A DNA stretch of 64,000 nt from Polytrichum commune (taxonomy: Eukaryota; Streptophyta; Polytrichopsida; Polytrichales; Polytrichaceae), in assembly GCA_950295325.1 (NCBI GenBank), contig OX485809.1, forward strand, positions 27,776,001 through 27,840,000, read 5' to 3'. Of this stretch, positions 965-55,653 are shown one piece after another. Numbering within the stretch: the first letter of the stretch is position 1; every line of letters begins with the position of its first letter. The position numbers and the translations under genes are program-made. Below the pieces are notes generated by a model. That model did no database searches. It saw only the letters and a list, made by a program, of their open reading frames with translations, and was not told the origin of the DNA.

Positions 965-3900
965 CTGTCCAGAAACATTGTAAATCCGCCGAACACCTGT
1001 TTCCCAAGCCTCTTCATAGTTGCTGTATCGGGGTGCCACAACCTGCATTCAGATGAAAATTAAACTCAAAACAGCAAAAGAAAACCAGCCACTTAGATCC
1101 TCAACCAACTGGGTGTCATCCTGAAACAGGTGACTTTTAATAGCCCTATCCCAATATTGGCAAATGCTCTCATGCTCACAATATAAATCGCAATAGAGAC
1201 TTGCAATACTGTAATTTGCCAAGGTGGTGAATGATGTACCATGACACGATGTCCTCGTCGTGCCAATGCCTTTGGCAACGCTCCAACCACATCACCAAGA
1301 CCCCCTTCAGCAAACAGAAAGAAGTAGAATATATTAAGTACCATTGTAGAAAGAGGAACGCAAGTCTTTTGTTAAAATAAGGTAAGCAGGCTAATTTGTT
1401 TACATATCTTGATCAGACACCTATATTTGAGTGGTGCTTCGTGAGGTGCAGATCCAAAGGCCGAGTCCCAAGTCCCACTCACGTTAGCAAGCCTCAACAT
1501 GGAGGCAAGTTCCAACTTTTGAGCCTCAAGACACCATTAAAATATGCTCAGTTATCCTTAAAGTTGGATCTTAATTATTTTATAAAAATATATTTGAAGG
1601 ACTTGTGTTGAGAGTTGGGTCTAGCTTTTGCTCAACCCAACTCTCAACACAAGTCCCAAGCCCCACCTCCAAAAAGTGTTGCCGTGTAGGCATCCATGTC
1701 ATACTTGGGACCCCGTGTGAAGTGGTATTCCATGCTCTCAATAGATTTGTTCTTAGGGCTGAGGTTGCACAGATTGACCTCAAGTGACTTGAGACCTAGG
1801 ACTTGGGACCCATGTGAACCCGCCCTAAGAACAAACACCAAAAAGACTTGTGTTTTAAAGAGATCGGACTCAACGCTCAAAATTTGCAAAACATTCTAGA
1901 CTCAATAGTCAACATAATTGAGGACCTATGTGGCCTTCTCATGGCTCACTGTCAGTGAACTTCGATGATTCGTAACAATTTGAGATTTGCTCCCAAACTA
2001 TCTGGAATTGATCCTGGCTTTTTAATATACATTTGCAGACACACATGAATATCAACCTCGAAAATCCTAGCATAAGGTAGAAAAATAACAAAAAGTTACC
2101 AAATGAGACCGATCTACCTTAAGATATTTTGAAAATGATGTTGATAAGCATCATATAAAAAAGAGGAACACCATATATATTTTATGACAGCATATTATGC
2201 TTTCCATCAAGGACCACCCTCAGTCAAAGAACTAACCTGTTTTGGACCATGGAGCACATTCGGATGCAACAACGATGACGTTCATCACATGCTTAGCCAA
2301 AGGGGGTGGCTTGTTTTCGACTGTTGTTGCATTCACTGCATCATTGCCAGCCTGTGCTTTTTCTTTTTTAAGCTCGGCTGCAGGACCTCTGATGCCCTCA
2401 CGGCTGTGAGCACTGTGAAAAGCTCGATTACTTTCTGTTGTTGTAGGGGTTGGTGGTGTCGGCGAATCATATGAAGGTGGAGAATATGGCTTGACAGCCC
2501 CACGCTCTTGTCGTGGGGTTTTTTTGGGGGGCGGAGGTGGCGGTGACGACCAAGCTGTTGCCAGTGCCCTTCCAGACAGAGAAGTGGGCGATTGCGCATT
2601 GTCTGCGACAACCTCAGCTGTCATTTGATTTTGTGAAGAGACTCTTTGTGGTTCACTACTTGGAACTTCAGCACTCCTTGCATACAGTTCCTGCCGTTGC
2701 TGTGTTGCAAAAATCAGCAAAGTTTTATAAATACCGCATGCAGTTTGACCAAACCCGCTCAAATAGCAGAGACAAGCCAATTAACAAACCAGGAATCTTT
2801 CTATTAAATGTATGCACAGATGTGGCTGCAGACATTTAAGACAAGGTGTTCATTCATGTTGTGTGATAATACAGATGACTACTAACTTAACAGAGTGAAA
2901 ACCTTTTGACAGTCACAGAACACCTATCAGACCACCGCCTCATACTACTTCATATTGCCTCTATTGTCCCTAGCAAATTAGATGTGAGTTAAGCACCTAC
3001 CTATAGAATGCATTGGTCAACAAATTTATACTAATAAGGCTATGATGCTACAAGGATGCATACAAATTTGTCACAGGACATGACCAAACCACAAGAATTG
3101 CAGAGACAAGTGAATTAACAAACCAGGATTTATTTAGAACAATTACTGCATGGATATGGTTGAAGAAATTAAAAGATTGTTTTCATTCATGTCATGTAGA
3201 AATACAAATGGGTATTAATTTAAGACAATGAGAACTTTTGTCAATAAGACAATTGACAGTCACAAAGTTACCTTACACTACTACTGCATATTGCCTCAAA
3301 TGTATATTCCCTAGCAAATAATACATATATATGTGTTGAGCAATTGGCGGGGTTTGGGGGGAGGGGGGGTACCTGAGCTGCTTGCTCGAAGCTCTGGTTG
3401 GGTGTCACATTGCTCTCTCCATCATACTGGCACGCCCATACAGACACAGAAGCTCAATCGCCAATGCAGGTTTAATATAATTCCATCCTAGGCCTCACCA
3501 TCTCACATCTCCCAAAGATGCTGGACTGTGAGGACCTTGCACTACATTAGAAAAGAAAAAAGAAAAAAGAAAACAGACTAGAATGTGCAGATCATCACAT
3601 CCTAAAGCTCTATCACATTCACCCCGAGCTCAAATGAACTGGCATTAATGAACCAGCAGCTGATATGTTCCAGCTTATGCAGTGACACCTGATTGCAATC
3701 AAAATTTGGGTTACCATTATCAGAACCCCACATCCAGATTTATGCCCCAACTAGTTACACTGCGGGCTTATGCCAAAAAACCAAAGACTTCGTTATTTAC
3801 ATCCAAGAAGCTCTGAACAACAATGCATTTCCATGATCAACTACTGCAGCTCTCTGAAGACAAAATTGAAAACTGGTCCAGGAAAGATCCAGGAATGCTA

Positions 3901-22907: not shown

Positions 22908-23140
22908 CTATGCGAACAAGAACCGCAATTGTTTTCCCATTGTGATTCTTTTGACCACCCTGATCTACAATCACTACATGACTACAAATTTTTGTTTTGT
23001 TTTGCAAGTAATTTTGAATTTTTTTGGGGGGCGTGTAATATACAGTTAGAAAGGTATTTTTGAGACCTTTCCAACGGTATATTACAAGCCCCTAAATTCC
23101 AAATATTTCAGTTGGTAGACTAAAAAAACAAATTTGCACT
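22908..23140. mobile_element. Worn, probably truncated copy of the CACTA MITE family
   Basis: Shares GAACCGCAATTGTTTTCCCA, TTTGACCACCCTGATCT and CCTTTCCAACGGTATATTAC with the clean copy at 27626-27957. It lacks the CACTA termini and the second arm is degraded. Confidence 0.6.
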
Positions 23141-23623
23141 CAAATTCTTGAGTTTCAGATGTCCCACATTGTTTGATGAAACACGTGGGAGCAAGTTTAA
23201 GAGGTAGGGCATGGAAGAAATGGTATGTCTCATGGGCTATGATATGATCTATGCACATAGAAGGTTGACTTGCTTCTCAAGGTTCATTCCATCATCTAGA
23301 TGTTGAAAAGTGAGCCTTACCTAGTGGGAAGAGTTGTATATAAAGCCCCCCAAAAAAATGTTATTATGGCATTTCTTTGCTATGGGCTTGTGCATTTTCC
23401 TATCAGACCACCTCTCTTGCCTCTCTCACCGCAAAACCCGTTGGACCATGCCAGTGCATTTATTAGGCCTTGAAAATTGTATTTTGGGGACCTTGACCTC
23501 CATGGTCCCTCTGCCATTTTTTCCTAAGTGTAAACCGAAGTCGTCCCAGGACGAGTTCAGCATCCAATCATCGCTCTTACAACGCCTTGGTCCGACTTCG
23601 TGGTCCATAGTGTAAACTGCCCC

Positions 23624-24600
23624 TAAGTAGGCATATGTAGTTTGAAGCTACAACCAACCTTTTAACATGATTGAACCATATTTAGATCAGTTATGATTTT
23701 TCATGTAAATAAGATAGATTTGAAACAAATATATTGTAAGCATAAAATATAATATAGTAGCTATTTTTTAAATTAAAAAGTAATATGTATTCATCAATAA
23801 GTAAGAAGTTGCAAAGGAAAAAGTTACAAGAAGCACATGTTTAATGCATCCTCACATAATCTGGCCCATGAAACCTAATTCTTGGCCTCTATGGAAACGC
23901 GCCCTCCTCACCTACCGTGATTTTTGTTTTTAAATTTCTCATTTTATAAACCCCCCCCCCTCCCCCACAAAGGCTTCCTCCTCAACCTTCATCCCCAAGT
24001 TTTTTTTTTTTCCTCACCGATGGCCCCAACTCGCTACGTGGTTCCCATCGGTTACGTATGCACCATGGGCATACCTTACAAGAATACACCCTCCTTAGTC
24101 ACATCCTTTTAAGGTATGAGAATGGTCACATGTAGTTACATGGTTACAAGATACCAAGTCTTCTAGTGCCAAGTTACGCAATCCCATAGTTACGCTTCGT
24201 TACGTGGTCCCCAATGGTTACATGGAAACCCATGGTTACAAAATGCTTCACAGTCACACAGTGCAAGGATACACCCTCTATGGTTACGTCCTTTTAAGGG
24301 TTAAATTCCAAGCACATTTGCGGGCAATCATTTATTTTTTACGCTCATTACTTTTTTTTTAATGTTTCGCACCTTTGCAATGCAAAATTAAGGAAGGTCA
24401 TTGGTTCCAACCGTTAACATTGTTGCACACAATGACTTAAACATACATGATTACAATGGTCCAAGGTTACGCAATATAGGGTTTATGTTAGGCATTACAA
24501 AAAAAGTCAGGTCCATAAAAGGCTGTTAGAATTAATTAAATATGGTTGTACAATATTTGAAAAGTAGTTGTCGCGATCATTATTCCCCTATTCCTGCTCA
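23624..24600. other. GTTAC-rich and AT-rich stretch upstream of the two-gene unit
   Basis: From about 24030 to 24480 the words GGTTACG, GGTTACA and GTTACGT recur at irregular spacing, as near 6.8 kb. No open frame of interest. Confidence 0.45.
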
Positions 24601-24887
24601 AGCCGGGAAGCGGGCAAAGCAGTTTTGAAAATCTTCTTGTGAACTGTTCACGCTCTTCTTGTCCTTGCTGGCGCTTATTCCCGCCTATTTTTTTTTTGAG
24701 ACAGAAGGCCAACTTATTCCCGCCTATTCACTGCTGTATTCCCGCCTTTGTATAGGCACCTGATTTCCTGTCTGACACTGTCCACCATTTTTGCTTGTCC
24801 AACACTGTCCGCCATTACAGGCACAATTCTGATTCTATTTTTGGGCTTGCTTCCGATGCATTTTTTTAGCTTTTACTAGGTTTCTCA
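24601..24887 (+). promoter_or_regulatory. Upstream region with three ATTCCCGCC motifs
   Basis: ATTCCCGCC occurs exactly at 24677-24685, 24716-24724 and 24738-24746, about 140-210 bp before the start codon at 24888. The TTCCCGCC core fits the E2F consensus used in plant S-phase promoters. The motif recurs at 30319-30327 upstream of the convergent partner gene. It could be a cell-cycle promoter element or a subterminal transposase-binding repeat. Confidence 0.4.
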
Positions 24888-27800
24888 ATGGAGAAAATAG
24901 ATTCTGATCGTCCTTTCAAAGTTCAGGTGTCCTTGAACTCGAAGTACCAGTCTTTAATAGTGAGAGGACGATTAATTCATGAGCAGACGCCGAGATCAAC
25001 TTTTGCTGAGAAACGGAAACGAGGTGATTCTAACCTTGATTTATGGTTGGATTCTTCAATTTACCCTCTGGATCCATCAACAGGGAAACGACCAAGGTTT
25101 AATGATGTGAAAAGTCTCCTAGAGTTTGTAGGTGATGGTCAGAGAGGTTTGTTTGGTTATACCCAAAGCTTGAACAATTCTGAATCTGAGAGAGAACTTG
25201 TGATTCAGCGATTCAGAATGCAATCAGACTGTGAGATTCTGAAAGATCGTATAGACAAACAAGCCCGGGAATTGGAACCTTTACAATTAGAATTGATGCA
25301 ACAGAAGACCGATTTTGAGCAGAGCCGAATTGTTGACTGTTCCTACCATCATAACAAATTTGAGCAAATGCGAAATGAGTATGTCAATCTTGAGAGAAGT
25401 TCAACCACATTAGTTGCATCGCTAAGCACAGATCTTGAGGAAAGTATGAAATCAGAAGCAGAACTTGAATCAGAAATAGAGGCAATTCAGAGAGAAAGAA
25501 ATGAGAAAATAAACGAGCTAGAACAATCTCACATACTTGAGGTACAGAAGATGAGTGTAGCGTTACAAGAAGCGTCGAGAAGTATCTCAATCCTGGAAAA
25601 GAAATGCAAACAACTTGAGTCAAAACGATTGGGTCAAGTGCGAAAATGCAGAGCCCGTAAAGATTTGCATGACTTGTCTCAATCTGGAGGTCATGCAAAA
25701 AACCAGAGGCGGTTGGCGAGATCGATTATTGCTGGAGCAACTATGCAGAGTATCCAAAAACGTAACGCACAAACTGGATTGAAGCAAAGGTTGTGTGGAT
25801 CAAAGGAGATTCAAATGCAATCAGGGAAGGTACTTGCTACAATCTTTTCAAAGAAAGAAGTCAGCACCATGTTAGAAAGTCCATGCATGCAGTCGGTCAC
25901 CACTAAGATTGTGAACGACTGCTTGGAGAAGATCGGTTCTCAGATTGGAGCAGCTGAAATTTGTGAGATAAAGGATTCTAGTGGAATGACCGACATTGGT
26001 TATTCAAAGATTTACAGAAAATTTAAGAACGGTATCAAAGCTGTTGGATCTGGATTACGGGTTGGTTGCTTGCCGCGGCCTTGGCATGTCTCATTACTTC
26101 GTCGAGAAATGAATGCTAAGCTCCGGGATTTTGTAGGAGATTACTATTCAATCAACAACATTTTAGAAATCCAACCGAGCACGAAGTCAAAGAAGAAGGA
26201 GACTGTACGAGTGGAGTTGACCACAAAGAATTCATTCTTTGTAGACGTCGAGATGGTGCAGAGAACAATGGTTGCATTGTACAATTTCACGCCAGAAGGT
26301 GTGTTCATTTATACTACACTTGTGTGCAATCATTGATACTTTGTTGGATTCATTTTAAAGTAGCTGATAAATGTATTATTCTTTGATTCATGCAGAGCTC
26401 GGTGAAAAACCACTCATATTTGTGATAAAGCTAGATGAAGCTGAAATTATACACGGACAAAAGTTTGAGAGAATCAGCATGACTATAATGAACCGTGCTT
26501 TGGATCGACAAATAGACAAAAAAGATCCACAGTATATTGCAGTTCAAAGTGAACGTGAGATCTGGCCAATCGGTTGCTTCCAAGTAGAGAAAGAGTCGCA
26601 TGAGATCCTATCTTGGGTGTTCAACCAGACCAGAATTCCATCTTTGATCAAAGCACAAGAGGCTGGACAACTTTTGGTAGTCCCTGGGGTGGGTGAATTC
26701 AAAGTGGAATGGCATCTATCAGCCGATATGAAGACAATGAAATGTATGTACGGTTTAGGCCACGGAGCTTGTGCCAAACACCGTTGCATCTATTGTTCCC
26801 AAGCAGGTCAAAAGACCATCATCGGAACAGCCGAAGAGGCTCGAGCTGCATTCAGTAAACGAGGAGGAAGAACTTGGGAAGGTGGCCTGTTTTCATCTAC
26901 TGTGCAATCAAAGCCTGTCAGTGGAGGTGCAACTTTGGCTCGGTGGAAACCAATCTTGCCTATTCCCCTTGCAAGGGTGCACATTTGCACGTTACATGCT
27001 TTTAACCGTATTGTTGAGAAGATTGTCCATCTGCATTTTCAGTTCATATGGACAATAAGAGATAAGAAATTGCAAGAGCAGGCAATTGAAGATATGCAAA
27101 GAGTTATATCCTCTACAGGTGCACATGGCGGAAATGTGGTAATATTCAAAGATGATAAGCTATCAGGAAAGAAGAATAGTGTTCCCAGTAAGCCATCGTT
27201 CAACGGAGTTCATGCCGAAAAGTTGTTTAAGAAGTCGACTTTGCCTTCTGGATCAGAGAAGTTGTTCACAGATGTCATAACAGCTGAAAGAAACTTCATT
27301 GATGGCGGAGAGGCTAGAAGAGCAAAGCTCGCAGTTTGGCAAGGATTGGACAGTCTTCGACCTTATTTCTCGGGACTAACACTAAAACAAAATGAGATAA
27401 ATGAATTTCAATCGCTTGTTTCAAAATGGGGACACGATTACATTGCTGCTTATGGCGAGACACATGTCACGCATTATATTGTGAGTTACTCCCTCTGTCC
27501 CAAAGTTGTAATAAGAGTATAATAAAGCAAAATTCTTTGTTGATTCTTCAAATCCAAGGTGACTTTATGGATAACCCCAATATGATCAATGAAATAAACT
27601 ATAACTTACATGTTTGAGGTTGTTGCACTAGTAGAAAACATGGTAAAAAAGAACCGCAGTCGTTTTCCCATTGCGGTTCTTTTGACCACCCTGATCTGCA
27701 GTCACCAAACAACTGCGGATTTGTTTTTTGTTTTTACGACTGTAATTTTGAAAATTTGGGGGCTTATAATATACCGCTAGATAGGTCTTGAAAATACCTT

Positions 27801-28462
27801 TCCAACGGTGTATTACATGCCCCCATAATTTCAAAATTGCAGTCATAAAACCAAAAAAACAAATGTGCAGTCGTTTGGTGACTGCAGATCAGGGTGGTCA
27901 AAAGAACCGCAATGGGAAAACGACTGCGGTTCTTTTTTACCATGTTTCCTATTAGTGTTGTAACACTTTTTTTTATTTCTCATCCATGTATCAAAGCTCA
28001 GTCTAACATGGATGTGGCTAATTTTGGCAGCATATAATCGTGAGGCATGCACCATGGTTTGTGCTCGAATATGGAAGCCTATCTGTATGGTCTAATCAAG
28101 GAATGGAATATAGTCATTACGCTGCTAAAGCAGCATATCAGGCTCATACACAACATGGGGGAGGTCGAACAAAGTTGAGTCCTTTAGAACAAACATACCA
28201 ACATTGGTATCGTCTGATTCAACACCGTTTCAGAGAGAAAGAAAATAAAACTTCTGCAAGTCTTTGGGAGCAGTCAGAGGAAGGGCTCATTGTCGAGGCA
28301 CGCATACAGAAGAGAAGAGAAGCCTCAATTAATTCAAGTGCAAATTTACACAGTCAGTTGTGGCGCCAAAATTGTGATAGAGTTGGATCTAAATGGGTCC
28401 CTCGTTCAACTAATCAACCAAAAGATTCAAGTACATCACCTGCTGCTGAAGAAGTCCAGTAG
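24888..28462 (+). CDS. Three-exon gene for a candidate RAG1/Transib-like DDE protein (975 aa)
   Basis: Exons 24888-26298, 26396-27480 and 28031-28462 join in phase (1, then 0) at GT-AG sites and give 975 residues without a stop. Residues ~98-250 are a long coiled coil, followed by a basic stretch (~250-300). A likely RNase H-fold core spans exons 2-3: D484 in FVIKLDEAEI, D581 in LSADMKTM and E858 in NQGMEYSHY. A C-x2-C pair (C601, C604) follows D581 by 20 and 23 residues. H833 and H838 (H-x4-H) precede E858 by 25 and 20. As I recall mouse RAG1 (D600, D708, E962; C727/C730; H937/H942), these spacings nearly or exactly match. The fold and family are therefore inferred from spacing, not from a search. 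The gene is intact, unlike other transposase remnants nearby. It meets the minus-strand gene tail to tail, with stop codons two bases apart. CMC-type or domesticated forms remain possible. Confidence 0.72.
27481..28030 (+). other. Intron 2 of the DDE-like gene, carrying a CACTA MITE
   Basis: Donor GTGAGT at 27481 and acceptor TTTTGGCAG ending at 28030. The joined exons read THYI then HIIVRHAPWF. More than half of the intron is the CACTA MITE at 27626-27957, so the intron was shorter before that insertion. Confidence 0.75.
27626..27957. mobile_element. CACTA-type MITE, foldback, TSD TTG
   Basis: 332 bp. It begins CACTAGTAGAAAACATGG and ends with the inverted CCATGTTTCCTATTAGTG. TTG flanks both ends (27623-27625 and 27958-27960), the 3-bp duplication of CACTA elements. 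The arms are nearly identical (AACCGCAGTCGTTTTCCCAT, CACCCTGATCTGCAGTCACC) around a short centre near 27790. It carries no coding capacity. A worn relative lies at 22908-23140. Confidence 0.9.
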
Positions 28463-28469
28463 TACTACT
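28458..28469. other. 12-bp palindrome holding both convergent stop codons
   Basis: AGTAGTACTACT is a perfect palindrome. The plus-strand TAG is 28460-28462 and the minus-strand stop occupies 28465-28467. Both mRNAs must run into each other's coding strand, since no 3' UTR space exists between them. Confidence 0.7.
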
Positions 28470-29831
28470 TGTCAGGAATTATCTTCAACATCCGTGGAGG
28501 TAAGACATCTCCCGCAATCCTATTCTTCTCGTGCCTGCGATTCACCTGCAGTTTTTTGACATTACACTTAGATAGGCTTCAAATATAATAAAATTTAAAT
28601 AAATAATAAAAGGCTTTTGAAATTACCTTTGTAGACTGTTGATCTTCATGAACAATGTAGAACGTGAATTCAGAGGGGGCACTTGCTCCTAATGCCATTT
28701 CAACTTCTGACCGCAAGGAAGTTAATGTCCAATTGTGCCCAACCTCAAGTTCTTGTTGCCACTCATCCATTTGGCAAAGAACTTTGACAATATGAATAGG
28801 CCCTGTTTGATCCATTGGTTGCCACATACCACCAGCTTTCAACCGGAACCTGTTGTACTGATAGTTTGAGTATAACGTGCTACGTCCTACATGGTATTTG
28901 AAGATTACCGAGGCTAAGTCTACGCAACACTTGATCTCATCAGCCCCTAAATATATCCTTTCATTCCACCCTTTGTCCATAAGTGAGTCAAAGACTTCCT
29001 CCGAATTATCTTTAAAAACAAATAGGCTCCGAGTTTTATGAATGTTTGTTGAAATAGCGAACAAATCAACCATGACATTGATTGGCATAAACCAACTGAT
29101 GTGTGTTACTCGGCTTCCAGTACTTGGTTTCATTGCAGAAAGAAAATCCTCTCTCATTTTCGCTCTAAAAGCTTCTGTTGTTGCCATGTCAGGTAATGAC
29201 CAGGCCGGATCATCAAATGAAGGCAAAGGAATTGCTTCTAAACGACCGAATCCTCCAGTAGTATTTGGATGGTACCACGAATTGTAAAAGTACACAGACT
29301 CGTCCATGAGCTGTCTATGACTGCGAGAACCCTTACTTGCTTCTCCAATTTCAGCATGGTAGACACAAATGACTCGTACAACACTAGTAGGTGCAACCCA
29401 GTCGTCATATTTTGATGGATATAAGTCTGCAATTCATGACAGTCAATTCCAAATTTAATAAAGTGCTAGAAAGAGATAAGAAATTTCATAAAACTTAAAT
29501 GTAAAATAATGTAATGAAAAAGTTGATAAGACTACTTACAATTGCAAGCTCCGTCTGCTGGAACATCTCTGGGATTGAGCTTCAGTTGTTGACGGCTATA
29601 TGCATGTTGGACTTGAATTGCCGAAATTGTTGATCCATCTGGACCTACTTTGAACTTTAAAACCCTAGCCAAATAGTTGCCATGTTTCTTCGCTTCACGA
29701 GCATGACCTCCTTTCTTCTCTGGTTCCAAACCCACCCATGAATTGACCTCTACCTTCGTAGGAATGTAATCACCATCCCTGTTCTGCAATGGGTACAGTA
29801 TAACACTCTGTACATAGCTTCGAGGCCTCAT
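28465..29831 (-). CDS. Unrecognised three-exon gene, tail-to-tail partner of the DDE-like gene (390 aa)
   Basis: Exons 29831-29540, 29426-28627 and 28545-28465 join in phase (1, then 0) at GT-AG sites and give 390 residues ending in a TAG at 28467-28465. I do not recognise the family. Exon 1 is moderately basic (WVGLEPEKKGGHAREAKKHG). Exon 2 has a Trp- and Tyr-rich middle (VYFYNSWYHP, SWFMPINVMVDLF). The last ~80 residues alternate short hydrophobic runs (HIVKVLCQMDEW, WTLTSLRSEVEMAL, EFTFYIVHEDQQSTKV, LPPRMLKIIPDK) in a pattern that would suit a beta-grasp, ubiquitin-like fold; this is a guess from pattern only. No kelch repeats, PHD finger, signal peptide or membrane segment is seen. Its clean reading frame and adjacency suggest it works with, or is mobilised with, its neighbour. 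Confidence 0.72.
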
Positions 29832-29968
29832 TTCTAGTGGGGAAAAAATGAAATGCCAACCCTACAACCTCAAAGAAGTGCAAAAGATCAAACGAGAGAA
29901 ATCGAGCAAAACTGAGAAATTAGCAAAAGTGAAACTCAAAAATTAGCAGAAGCCACAAAGTTGGAGCT

Positions 29969-30193
29969 ATGATCGGGGAGAACCGGCAGTTAGTTACAGA
30001 TGAACCGGTTGAGTTTGAGAAAGAACTGGTTGAAGTTCAAGACTACAGGAAAATTACCGATCGTTTTAGAGGAATTTATAGAATATACTCCAATTTAATA
30101 AAGGAAAACCGGAGGATGTGAACATGTAACCGGTTGGACTTGCAAACACTAGGATCTCAACCGCTTATGCCCAAAAATCTTCCCGATCACTGA
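29969..30193 (+). mobile_element. Mutator-like MITE upstream of the partner gene
   Basis: 225 bp with ATGATCGGGGAGAACC and CTTCCCGATCACTGA ends. Flanking 9-mers GTTGGAGCT (29960-29968) and GTTGGAGAA (30194-30202) match at 7 of 9. It lies between the partner gene's start codon and the G/C-rich block with E2F-like motifs, so it may have displaced upstream elements. Confidence 0.78.
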
Positions 30194-30500
30194 GTTGGAG
30201 AAGCAGCAAAGCAAACGAAGCAGCATCGCGGGAAAGCAGGAAAAGTGCAAACGTTCGCTTGAGACTGTGGGAGAAAAAGCGGGAGAATGTACAGCTGTCT
30301 TCCCTCTTGCGCATCGATATTCCCGCCCGAACTGTCAGACTCCAGCATGCCACGCTCCTCAGACCAATAACGAGGTCAAGTTTGTCCACATCCTCGAAAT
30401 CCGGCCACGTCATCCAACTGACCTGAGCTTAGGCCTGACGACGGGCAGCCTCATTAAAACTCCTGCAACCCGCTCCCAGAATACAGCCCTAGCATAGCTT
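30194..30500 (-). promoter_or_regulatory. Upstream region of the partner gene with E2F-like motifs
   Basis: GCGGGAAA at 30228-30235 (TTTCCCGC on the minus strand) and ATTCCCGCC at 30319-30327 fit E2F-type sites. The region is richer in G and C than its surroundings, like 24600-24760 at the other end of the unit. A weak inverted similarity between 24605-24632 and about 30453-30477 could be a decayed terminal repeat. Confidence 0.35.
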
Positions 30501-30514
30501 GATTATTTTTGTAA

Positions 30515-30790
30515 TGGGTTTATATTGGAAGTCAATAGGACTAGAGTTGAGATTGCACAAGCATATTACACATGCACGGAGGCATATGAACAATATTTGG
30601 AGTGAGAGGGTCATTCTCGCCCCTTGCCTTGCCCTTTATTGCTCATTTTCAACTTGGTTCTTACATACAATATCAAATAACTCTTCTCCCACTACGGACC
30701 ATCCTTGTAGGCTTATTACAACCTTATTCTTTCTAGTATTACATTTTTGTGACTATGAGGAATGTGATGCTCCATCTTCAACACTGCCAC
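30515..30790 (+). repeat. Dispersed repeat (possible LTR fragment), copy 1
   Basis: Matches 33462-33735: shared GAGATTGCACAAGCA, CCTTGCCTTGCCCTTTATTG, CTTGTAGGCTTATTACAA and TGATGCTCCA/TAATGCTCCA. Copies differ by scattered substitutions and small gaps. The class is uncertain; no TG...CA boundary was fixed. Confidence 0.6.
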
Positions 30791-33461: not shown

Positions 33462-33735
33462 TATGTTTTTATTGGAACTTAATAAGTCTAGAGATGAGAT
33501 TGCACAAGCAAGTCACACACACACAAAGGCGTATGAACAATGCTTGAAGTGAGATGGTCTTCTCCACTCCTTGCCTTGCCCTTTATTGTTGATTTTCACT
33601 TGGTTGATACAAACAATATGGGATATTTCATCTCCCACTATGTATCAGCCTTGTAGGCTTATTACAAACTTATTACTTTTAGTGGTACATTTCTATGACT
33701 ACTAGCAATCTAATGCTCCACCTTCAACAATTTTC
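33462..33735 (+). repeat. Dispersed repeat (possible LTR fragment), copy 2
   Basis: Second copy of the 30515-30790 sequence. The text that follows (TTGTTGTTAATTCAT, then TTTCACCCTTCCCCTTGG) resembles that at 62840-62990, so the repeat unit may be longer than the shared 275 bp. Confidence 0.55.
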
Positions 33736-51651: not shown

Positions 51652-52707
51652 CAAGCCATAAATTTGACACCCTAGCCAAATTTCCAGGGGACACCCTGCT
51701 CCAATTTTTGGGTGTCCTCATAAATTTCTCTTAATTTTTTTTTTGTGAAAAATATATAATATCATTTCAAAATATCAATTAAAAATCAAAAAAATCACTA
51801 CATATCATAACTTGCAATGCAAATCAAACCTACAAGCGGCGGCCTTTCATAGCACACCACTTTACCCATACTTGTTCAAAGTCAATGGCCTCTATGGGGA
51901 TTTTTGCCATTGCAACTCTCATTTGTGCTTCCAAAGTCTCTAATACCAAACTACACCGTAAAGTAGATTTAATATGATTTTGAGTAGAAAATCCTCTCTC
52001 ACAAGAAGCTATACTAGCAGGAATTACAAGAACAACTTGCCACAACTTTGTCATATGAGGATATCTTCCAACATAGTCCAAATTGGAAGAATAAACCATC
52101 CAAGCTTGGTGCATTTTAAGACCACCACATGAAATATGAAGTGTATCCAAAAAACCTTGAAGCTCTGATTTTAAACCACGCTCATCAAAAAGATTCCCTC
52201 CATTAGTGCAGAAGTGGTCAATGAAACTCTGAAGCCATAAACGAGCATTTCGATGAAGAAGTGTCAAGTTTGTTGAAAAACAAACATGGCTAAATAGCTT
52301 AGTTGCATTGAAGAGCTTCAAATCAGGAAATCGTTGCTGCAATGATTCTATCACCTTAACCACATAGGCTTGTGCAATCACCTTGCACCCATGGAGGATA
52401 CCATCACCACCAAACTCAATTGCATGAGGCAATGGTGCATAATGCAATATATGTGAATGCACCACTCCTGTAGAGTCTTGAAAATGGATCTCACCACCTC
52501 TAGAAATGTCCAAAAATTGTGCCACAAACTTGGTATCTGCTGATAGGCCCTACAAGTACAGGGGACACCCTGAATTTTTTTTGGGTGTAAAAAGGACACC
52601 CTTGTAGGATTTTTGGGTGTCCTCGGGGACACCCTGTTTGAGATTTGGGTGTCCTAGGACACTCTAGGAAGCAAAATACACCCCCAGGGTGTCAATTTTA
52701 TGCCCTG
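51652..52707 (-). mobile_element. hAT element (hAT-2), non-autonomous, perfect 8-bp TSD
   Basis: 1056 bp. The left end CAAGCCATAAATTTGACACC matches the inverted right end CAGGGCATAAAATTGACACC. The 8-mer GCCTGAAT is exact on both sides (51644-51651 and 52708-52715). GGACACCC/GGGTGTCC words are repeated near both ends (for example 51700-51725 and 52560-52660), as expected for transposase-binding sites. It carries only the C-terminal part of a transposase. Confidence 0.92.
51830..52525 (-). pseudogene. hAT transposase C-terminal fragment in hAT-2
   Basis: 231 codons open on the minus strand. The end reads MTKLWQVVLVIPASIASCER, GFSTQNHIKSTLR and LETLEAQMRVA, the hAT dimerisation motif. The upstream part (SLQQRFPDLKLFNATKLF) fits the region just before that domain in ZNF862-like hAT proteins. 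The catalytic core start and DNA-binding finger are missing. The frame fills most of the element and lacks internal stops. Confidence 0.82.
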
Positions 52708-53480: not shown

Positions 53481-55653
53481 GCACAACCCGTAAACATGCT
53501 CTTACAAATGGGCATAGTCGACTAATCATCCACACTCTGTCCTGAAAATGTTTTTTTTAGTTTTCAGTTATATATATCAACTCTTCCATGATAAACCATT
53601 GATGTAGTCAAGAGAGTGTTTTGTACATTGTTTTACCAATAGATTTCAAAGACTTTGCATTTAAGAATGTAAGATGATTATATGTGCTCCCCAAGTCACT
53701 TGGACTTTGGCAAAATTGGTTGAGTATGGATATTGCAAAAGGTACACTAAATCATCTAATTAGTGTGGAAGATTATTCAGAATTATGTAATGTTATAGTC
53801 TAATTTACTTAATCAAAGGATATCATTTTTATTTTTAATCAAATGAGCACATTGTTTTTATTTTTTATTTTTTTATTTTATCACTTTAGGACAATGGAAG
53901 TTTCAGTTATAATATCAATTAGCTCCAAATAGCTCAATAAAGAAACAATGTAGTATAGTAGGATAATACAAGCTACACTAAATATGATATTTAGCGTCAT
54001 ATGGTATTTAATGTCACTATGGTAGTTTTTTGGATGACACATCTTATGAATAAGTTTACAAATACTGCCATGGATGATGTATGAGTTCATCCATTGGCCA
54101 AAGCCCTACCTTCTCTTGTCATCAACTTGTGATGAAAGACTGTCATGGATGATGGATGAGTTCACCCATTGGCCAAAACCCTACCTTCTCTTGTCGGCAA
54201 CTTGCGATGAAAGACTGTCATTGATGATGGATGAGTTCATCCATTGGCCAAAACCCTACCTTCTCTTGTCAGCATCTTGTGATGAAATACTGTCATGGAT
54301 GATGGATGGGTTCATCCATTGGCCAAAACCTTACCTTCTCTTGTCGGCAACTTGTGATGAAAGACTGTCATGGATGATGGATGAGTTCATCCATTGGCCA
54401 AAAACCTACCTTCTCTTGTCAACATCTTTTGATGAAAGACTGTCATGGATGATGGATGGGTTCATCCATTGGCCAAAACCTTACCTTCTCTTGTCAACAA
54501 CTTGTGATGAAATACTGTCATGGATGATGGATGGGTTCATCCATTGGCCAAAACCCTACCTTCTCTTGTCGGCAACTTGTGATGAAAGACTGTCATGGAT
54601 GATGGATGAGTTCATCCATTGGCCAAAGCCCTACCTTCTCTTGTCGGCAACTTGTGATGAAAGACTGTCATGGATGATGGATGAGTTCACCCATTGGCCA
54701 AAACCCTACCTTCTCTTGTCGGCAACTTGCGATGAAAGACTGTCATGGATGATGGATGAGTTCATCCATTGGCCAAAACCCTACCTTCTCTTGTGAGCAT
54801 CTTGTGATGAAATACTGTCATGGATGATGGATGGGTTCATCCATTGGCCAAAAACCTACCTTCTCTTGTCAGCATCTTGTGATGAAATATTGTCATGGAT
54901 GATGGATGGGTTCATCCATTGGCCAAAACCTTACCTTCTCTTGTCGGCAACTTGTGATGAAAGACTGTCATGGATGATGGATGAGTTCATCCATTGGCCA
55001 AAACCCTACCTTCTCTTGTCAGCATCTTGTGATGAAATACTGTCATGGATGATGGATGGGTTCATCCATTGGCCAAAACCTTACCTTCTCTTGTCAGCAA
55101 CTTGTGATGAAATATTGTCATGGATGATGGATGAGTTCATCCATTGGCCAAAGCCATACCTTCTCTTGTCAGCAACTTGTGATGAAATATTTTCATGGAT
55201 TATTGAAATTTCGATGTAAAATCACCTAGTAAGGCACAGTAAATGCAACACTTTAATTTACAATCCCCCCAAAAATTTACAAGGAATGACAATTAATGTT
55301 GGGTTAACATTTAGTGTTGGTGACACTCTACTGTGCATTACAATTAGTATCCGAATATTTTTCCACACTAATTAGGTGATTTAATGTACCTTTTGCAATA
55401 TCCATACTCAACCAATTTTGCCAAAACTCCAAGTGACTTGGGTTACACATATAATCATCTTACATTCTTTAATGCAAAGCCATTGAAATTTATTGGTAAA
55501 ACAATGTACAAAACACTCCCTTGACTACATCGACGGTTTATCATGGAAGAGTTGATATATTTTTGAGAACAAGAAAAAACATTTTTAGGACACAGAGTGT
55601 GGATGACTAATTTAGCTATGCCCATTTGTAAGAGCATGTGTTATGGGTTGTGC
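53481..55653. mobile_element. Foldback-like locus with ~290-bp inverted arms around a minisatellite
   Basis: Arms 53481-53770 and 55361-55653 are inverted copies. Landmarks are GCACAACCCGTAAACATGCT, CATCCACACTCTGTCCT, TTTTGTACATTGTTTTACCA, TTGGTTGAGTATGGATATTG and TAATTAGTGTGGAA. Between them lies an element starting near 53971 (AGCTACACTAAATATGATAT) that holds the 75-bp array. The overall form resembles foldback transposons with long arms and internal tandem repeats. No target duplication at the outer ends was established. Confidence 0.7.
54070..55195 (+). repeat. 75-bp minisatellite, 15 copies
   Basis: Fifteen units with exact 75-base spacing and no indels, followed by a partial diverged unit. 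Each unit contains ATGGATGAGTTCATCCAT, an inverted repeat with arms ATGGATGA/TCATCCAT. Because 75 is a multiple of three, the plus strand is open through nine and a half units (25 residues each, MMDEFIHWPKPYLLL-type); a TGA in unit 10 breaks it. Unit variants (GAG/GGG at the palindrome, AGAC/ATAC near the unit end) recur in a mixed order, as expected from unequal exchange. Confidence 0.92.

Follow-up and report, generated by a model that had tools for sequence, protein, structure and literature searches.

RAG1, together with RAG2, is the standard example of a transposon that became an immune recombinase, which raises the question of why a transposase encoded by a single gene acquired a partner. 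According to PMC7204232, RAG-like (RAGL) elements have convergent genes, CAC-starting ends, and 5-bp duplications. PMC4411706 terms the RAG1L-RAG2L layout head-to-head and describes Transib (HzTransib) as a one-gene element. PMC9435367 counts Transib-like proteins in plants and reports, from a pelagophyte alga, a RAGL element whose genes diverge. Here, we describe a locus of Polytrichum commune in which a transposase gene and a partner gene meet tail to tail. The window, that is, the whole stretch of DNA that was analyzed, comprises 64,000 nucleotides (GCA_950295325.1, contig OX485809.1, positions 27,776,001 to 27,840,000, forward strand), and positions are counted from its first letter. The unit is most likely a two-gene transposon of the CMCT clade (EnSpm, Mirage, Chapaev, Transib, and kin). 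We give a probability of about 0.65 to its being a cut-and-paste DNA transposon with two genes, present here as an intact copy, with the partner moving along.

Gene structures and layout of the locus

The original prediction of two intact, convergent three-exon genes was confirmed by reading frames, splice sites, and the junctions of homologues (Table 1). Both introns of the plus gene have GT..AG borders. The last base of exon 2 of the minus gene (28627) was fixed by phase, in agreement with a tblastn comparison of the spliced protein with the window. The plus stop (28460-28462) and the minus stop (28465-28467) have 2 nt between them. Both gene models are further supported because homologues match their starts or junctions: homologue P0001 has no intron at the transposase exon 1-2 junction and terminates at the exon 2-3 junction, partner homologue P0118 has a start and a first junction identical to those of the minus gene, and the partner exon 2-3 junction is read through in 5 of 20 homologues (P0126, P0127, P0129, P0131, and P0133).

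Intron 2 of the plus gene contains a nearly palindromic CACTA-type miniature inverted-repeat transposable element (MITE) at 27626-27957, with ends CACTAGTAG.. and ..TATTAGTG and a TTG duplication; a diverged relative of it is located around 22915-23141. Another MITE is found upstream of the minus gene (29967-30192). Its inverted ends are CTATGATCGGGG and CAGTGATCGGG, and its duplication, AGTTGGAG, is hAT-like in length (8 bp). Seven further sites in the window carry related stretches.

Table 1. Positions of the two genes, key exons, candidate ends, and flanking repeats in the window
Feature	Position	Strand	Remarks
Transposase gene	24888..28462	+	Exons 24888-26298, 26396-27480, 28031-28462; 975 aa; 115 exon 2 homologues
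Transposase exon 2	26396..27480	+	D484 on long strand, D581 directly after strand, C601/C604, H666-x-C-x2-H671; from conservation and model
Transposase exon 3	28031..28462	+	H833-x4-H838, E858; register matches RAG1 H937/H942/E962
Partner gene	28465..29831	-	Exons 29831-29540, 29426-28627, 28545-28465; 390 aa; no recognized domain
Candidate left inverted repeat, CATTACAAAAAAAGTCAGGT	24493..24512	+	16/20 against right end; GG flanks; unconfirmed
Candidate right inverted repeat, CATTACAAAAATAATCAAGC	30497..30516	-	Unconfirmed
Three exact copies of TATTCCCGCC	24676..24746 (24676, 24715, 24737)	+	Left flank
Fourth and last exact copy of TATTCCCGCC in the window	30318..30327	+	Right flank

A RAG1-like core in the transposase

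A RAG1-like core is well supported by two links that draw on different parts of the protein: the link in sequence comes from the C-terminal region of the protein encoded in the window, and the link in fold from the remainder. The predicted model of a homologue without exon 3 matches the core fold of RAG1, as do RAGL transposons (ProtoRAG, BbRAG1L-RAG2L), at about 13-17% identity in structural alignment with RAG1/RAGL. In the viral structure library, no match reached an expectation value (E) <= 0.001 (best 9.5e-3, probability 0.38). In the sequence comparison, residues 472-975 scored 70 against residues 643-1006 of mouse RAG1, and none of 1000 shuffles was as good (mean 37, maximum 62); the best stretch aligns THYIHIIVRHAPWFVLEYGSLSVWSNQGME with RAG1, placing H833, H838, and E858 onto H937, H942, and E962. 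With the family profile, RAG1 outranked its 999 shuffled versions in an unchanged register, the match (E 0.04) being below HMMER's own inclusion threshold. The controls, residues 1-471 (148 of 300 shuffles as good) and the partner (284 of 300), showed no signal against RAG1.

The residues named in the original prediction (D484, D581, C601, C604, H833, H838, and E858) were found as placed, and the RAG1 residues that it cited, D708, C727/C730, H937/H942, and E962, are correct with respect to the full-length RAG1 chain; we take RAG1 D600 to be the counterpart of D484. Conservation was counted in an alignment of the window protein and 61 of its 115 homologues, the other 54 being left out of the column counts. 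D581 is present in 62 of 62 rows, C601 in 61, and C604 in 60, and D484 is kept in 52 of the 53 rows with a letter at that column (9 gaps). Residues H577, K583, K586, H666, C668, H671, and K679 each occur in all 62 rows. When all 115 homologues were scanned with one pattern for the exon 3 motif, the only match was P0101, whose H-x4-H and E have the same spacing as in the window. The protein has a DDE core of the CMCT kind, in which C(2)C and H(3-4)H lie between the second D and the E; the E and the H pair were found in the window and P0101 only. When the transposase protein was shuffled 20000 times, a relaxed spacing pattern (D 18-22 residues before C-x2-C, H-x4-H 100-350 later, E 19-21 residues past the second H, and D484 optional) arose 31 times; the spacing exceeds chance, although the motif was picked after looking. 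The RAG1/Transib-like RNase H core that had been proposed is supported by the homologue fold and the C-terminal register, and neither outcome named beforehand as refuting it, a fold without an RNase H core or a lack of conservation of the named residues, turned up.

Several observations weigh against the link to RAG1. The modelled protein is the homologue lacking exon 3, not the 975-aa product of the window, and because no EnSpm or Chapaev transposase structure appeared in the fold lists, RAG1/Transib is inseparable from EnSpm/Chapaev by fold. The transposase profile found no sequence relative in PDB, RAG1 included (best E 0.11, a coiled coil). Among 14 tested homologues without exon 3, the best, P0027, was equalled by 6 of 200 shuffles in the comparison with RAG1, the next, P0099, by 28, and the other 12 by 48 to 167. 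P0101, which has the exon 3 motif, was marginal (29 of 1000 shuffles as good). When the family profile was compared with one RAG1 sequence at the profile-profile level, the match was weak (P 0.015 with a probability of 3%; P 0.12 for reversed RAG1), the register being right nonetheless.

Relatives of the transposase

Exon 2, used as a two-row profile, retrieved 115 proteins (weakest E 5.6e-10); among those aligned, the highest identities to the window protein are 98, 88, 69, 69, and 65%. With the core (residues 330-975) of the spliced 975-aa protein as query, a single relative was found, P0001, with 58% identity, because open reading frames (ORFs) predicted on contigs stop at introns. An organism, the fern Adiantum nelumboides, is named for three of the 115 relatives, which are nearly all ORFs of public contigs. 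Neither Pfam nor PDB gave a significant match in single-sequence searches with the spliced transposase, and there was no significant match in NCBIfam. Scans of viral and prokaryotic contigs confirmed no relative, and the plasmid and phage searches returned weak matches only (best E 1 and 9).

Some copies look decayed, as would be expected of a transposon, unlike a single host gene: the reading frame of P0052 shifts close to its end, and two gene models from Adiantum, P0111 and P0115, contain fused pieces of retroelements. Such decayed copies in a fern make domestication at one locus less likely. We consider it very improbable that the two genes are a domesticated recombinase pair that acquired a host function and lost mobility. 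Both genes being intact despite MITEs in an intron and one flank, as well as the absence of firm ends in the flanks searched, would suit such a pair, but the relatives are many and diverged, and no sign of a single-copy syntenic gene was seen.

The partner protein and its possible association with the transposase

A search with exon 2 of the partner found 20 homologues with identities of 42-98%. Their highest values (98, 85, 81, 66, and 64%) form a ladder like that of the transposase, as expected from joint spread; this similarity is suggestive only. The partner has no significant Pfam match, and its profile finds no sequence relative in PDB. Consistent with the original prediction of a partner without kelch repeats, the partner and 21 members had no kelch family among their Pfam matches at E <= 10, as judged by sequence, the partner model being poor (predicted local distance difference test score, 59.5). 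A C-terminal beta-grasp domain, hinted by strand order alone, is not claimed.

Other results speak against a two-gene element. Foldseek found no fold relative of the partner (best match, E 0.39), and no locus with both genes beyond the window was read in the transposase and partner match lists. The contigs of the two lists, for which the longest contig per cluster was used, share no size above 1,300 bases. This includes four long contigs on the partner side (87,666 to 368,379 bases), and of three short contig sizes that do coincide (1136, 1173, and 1233), two come from different sources and the third is too short for both ORFs. Given copy decay, the lack of shared contigs is weak evidence against pairing. 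It would fit a chance neighborhood, the transposase gene having landed tail to tail next to some other gene or element, an explanation that we regard as unlikely in view of the minimal distance between the stops, the similar identity ladders, the occurrence of the partner family, too, in many contigs, and the presence of the same 10-mer, TATTCCCGCC, on both flanks.

Candidate ends and flanking repeats

The candidate ends, the GC content, and TATTCCCGCC give hints that about 24.5-30.5 kb forms one element. The unit is richer in GC (0.40-0.45) than its surroundings (0.36-0.38). In the flanks searched, 24493/30516 is the top CA..TG candidate by the score used; it was equalled by 1 of 100 shuffles when the search was narrow and by 1 of 30 when it was wide. 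TATTCCCGCC, a motif chosen by eye, has four exact copies in the window and two one-mismatch copies elsewhere, and none of 100 shuffles reaches six. When the inner flanks were aligned with each other, 7 of 300 simple shuffles were as good in direct and 2 of 300 in inverted orientation, which is at most suggestive. CAC-starting ends with a 5-bp duplication yielded no convincing pair in the flanks searched. Two points count against these boundaries: one candidate pair is a weak basis for the putative ends, and the left candidate end also pairs in inverted orientation with 24337-24364 in the left flank.

A direct repeat of ~80% identity (30517-30783 and 33464-33729) adjoins the unit, its homology beginning exactly at the candidate right end. 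An empty site at 33464 was considered and rejected, as the right flank recurs there while the left flank has no match.

Proposed mechanism and place within the CMCT clade

As a two-gene transposon, the unit would operate as follows. The plus gene would encode a DDE transposase whose domains follow the RAG1/Transib order: a dimer/DNA-binding part, then pre-RNase H, then RNase H. The RNase H core would contain D484, D581, and E858, and C601/C604 would form a zinc site together with H833/H838. A transposase dimer would bind the element ends, cut with two metal ions, and join the ends to a new site. The minus gene would encode a conserved accessory protein that travels with the transposase and may aid end recognition, assembly, or regulation, like RAG2L for RAG1L, though it appears to be an unrelated protein.

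The convergent two-gene layout, here in one locus, is shared with RAGL transposons. The partner without a kelch match and the low structural identity differ from RAGL and vertebrate RAG1; CAC ends with 5-bp duplications were not found in the flanks searched, where the ends are candidates. Unlike the one-gene Transib, the unit has an adjoining second gene that probably belongs to it. By description, EnSpm/CACTA, Chapaev, Mirage, and Plavaka have the C(2)C/H(3-4)H layout in common with the unit, and likewise the candidate CA..TG ends. The spliced protein and 19 family members had no match to the CACTA or Plavaka Pfam models at E <= 10, which a diverged lineage could escape.

There is nearly an even chance that the unit falls within a superfamily of this clade that already has a name, with Lanisha the foremost candidate, or represents a deviant EnSpm/Chapaev, so that at most the partner would be new; the mechanism would overlap with that proposed above, and the novelty would differ. 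PMC12730594 assigns C(2)C and H(3-4)H to all CMCT lineages, among them Lanisha, which was proposed in 2020 (Repbase Reports) and which the unit resembles by description only. The candidate ends, CA..TG with 2-bp flanks, also fit the description of the clade. Lanisha is of land-plant origin, and its authors are moss geneticists. On the other side stand the missing CACTA and Plavaka matches and a register that appears nearest to RAG1 among the sequences that could be compared, a weak argument with Lanisha outside the comparison. The novelty of the two-gene transposon depends on the comparison with Lanisha and on whether the two genes occur together at another locus. No such two-gene fern element was among the literature matches listed (subscription papers and Repbase lay outside the scope).

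Other open reading frames of the window

An ORF at 2232-2780 (-) is a possible host gene, in whose C-terminal end the catalytic domain of a starch synthase presumably begins. The ORF at 51830-52549 (-) resembles, by eye, the C-terminal dimerization part of hAT transposases, and that at 54050-54796 (+) consists of tandem repeats of ~22 codons (MDEFIHWPKPYLLLSATCDERLSW).

Implications

At minimum, the locus reveals a conserved fern transposase family and a second protein family, both without a significant Pfam match. Tentatively, and with somewhat less confidence than we place in membership of a named superfamily, we propose that land plants hold an independent counterpart of the RAG transposon, in which a RAG1-fold transposase is combined with an unrelated convergent partner, and that the two-protein plan arose repeatedly. 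If this is true, a plant lineage with the RAG1 fold, the convergent layout, and a different partner would be an independent case for testing what the partner contributes.
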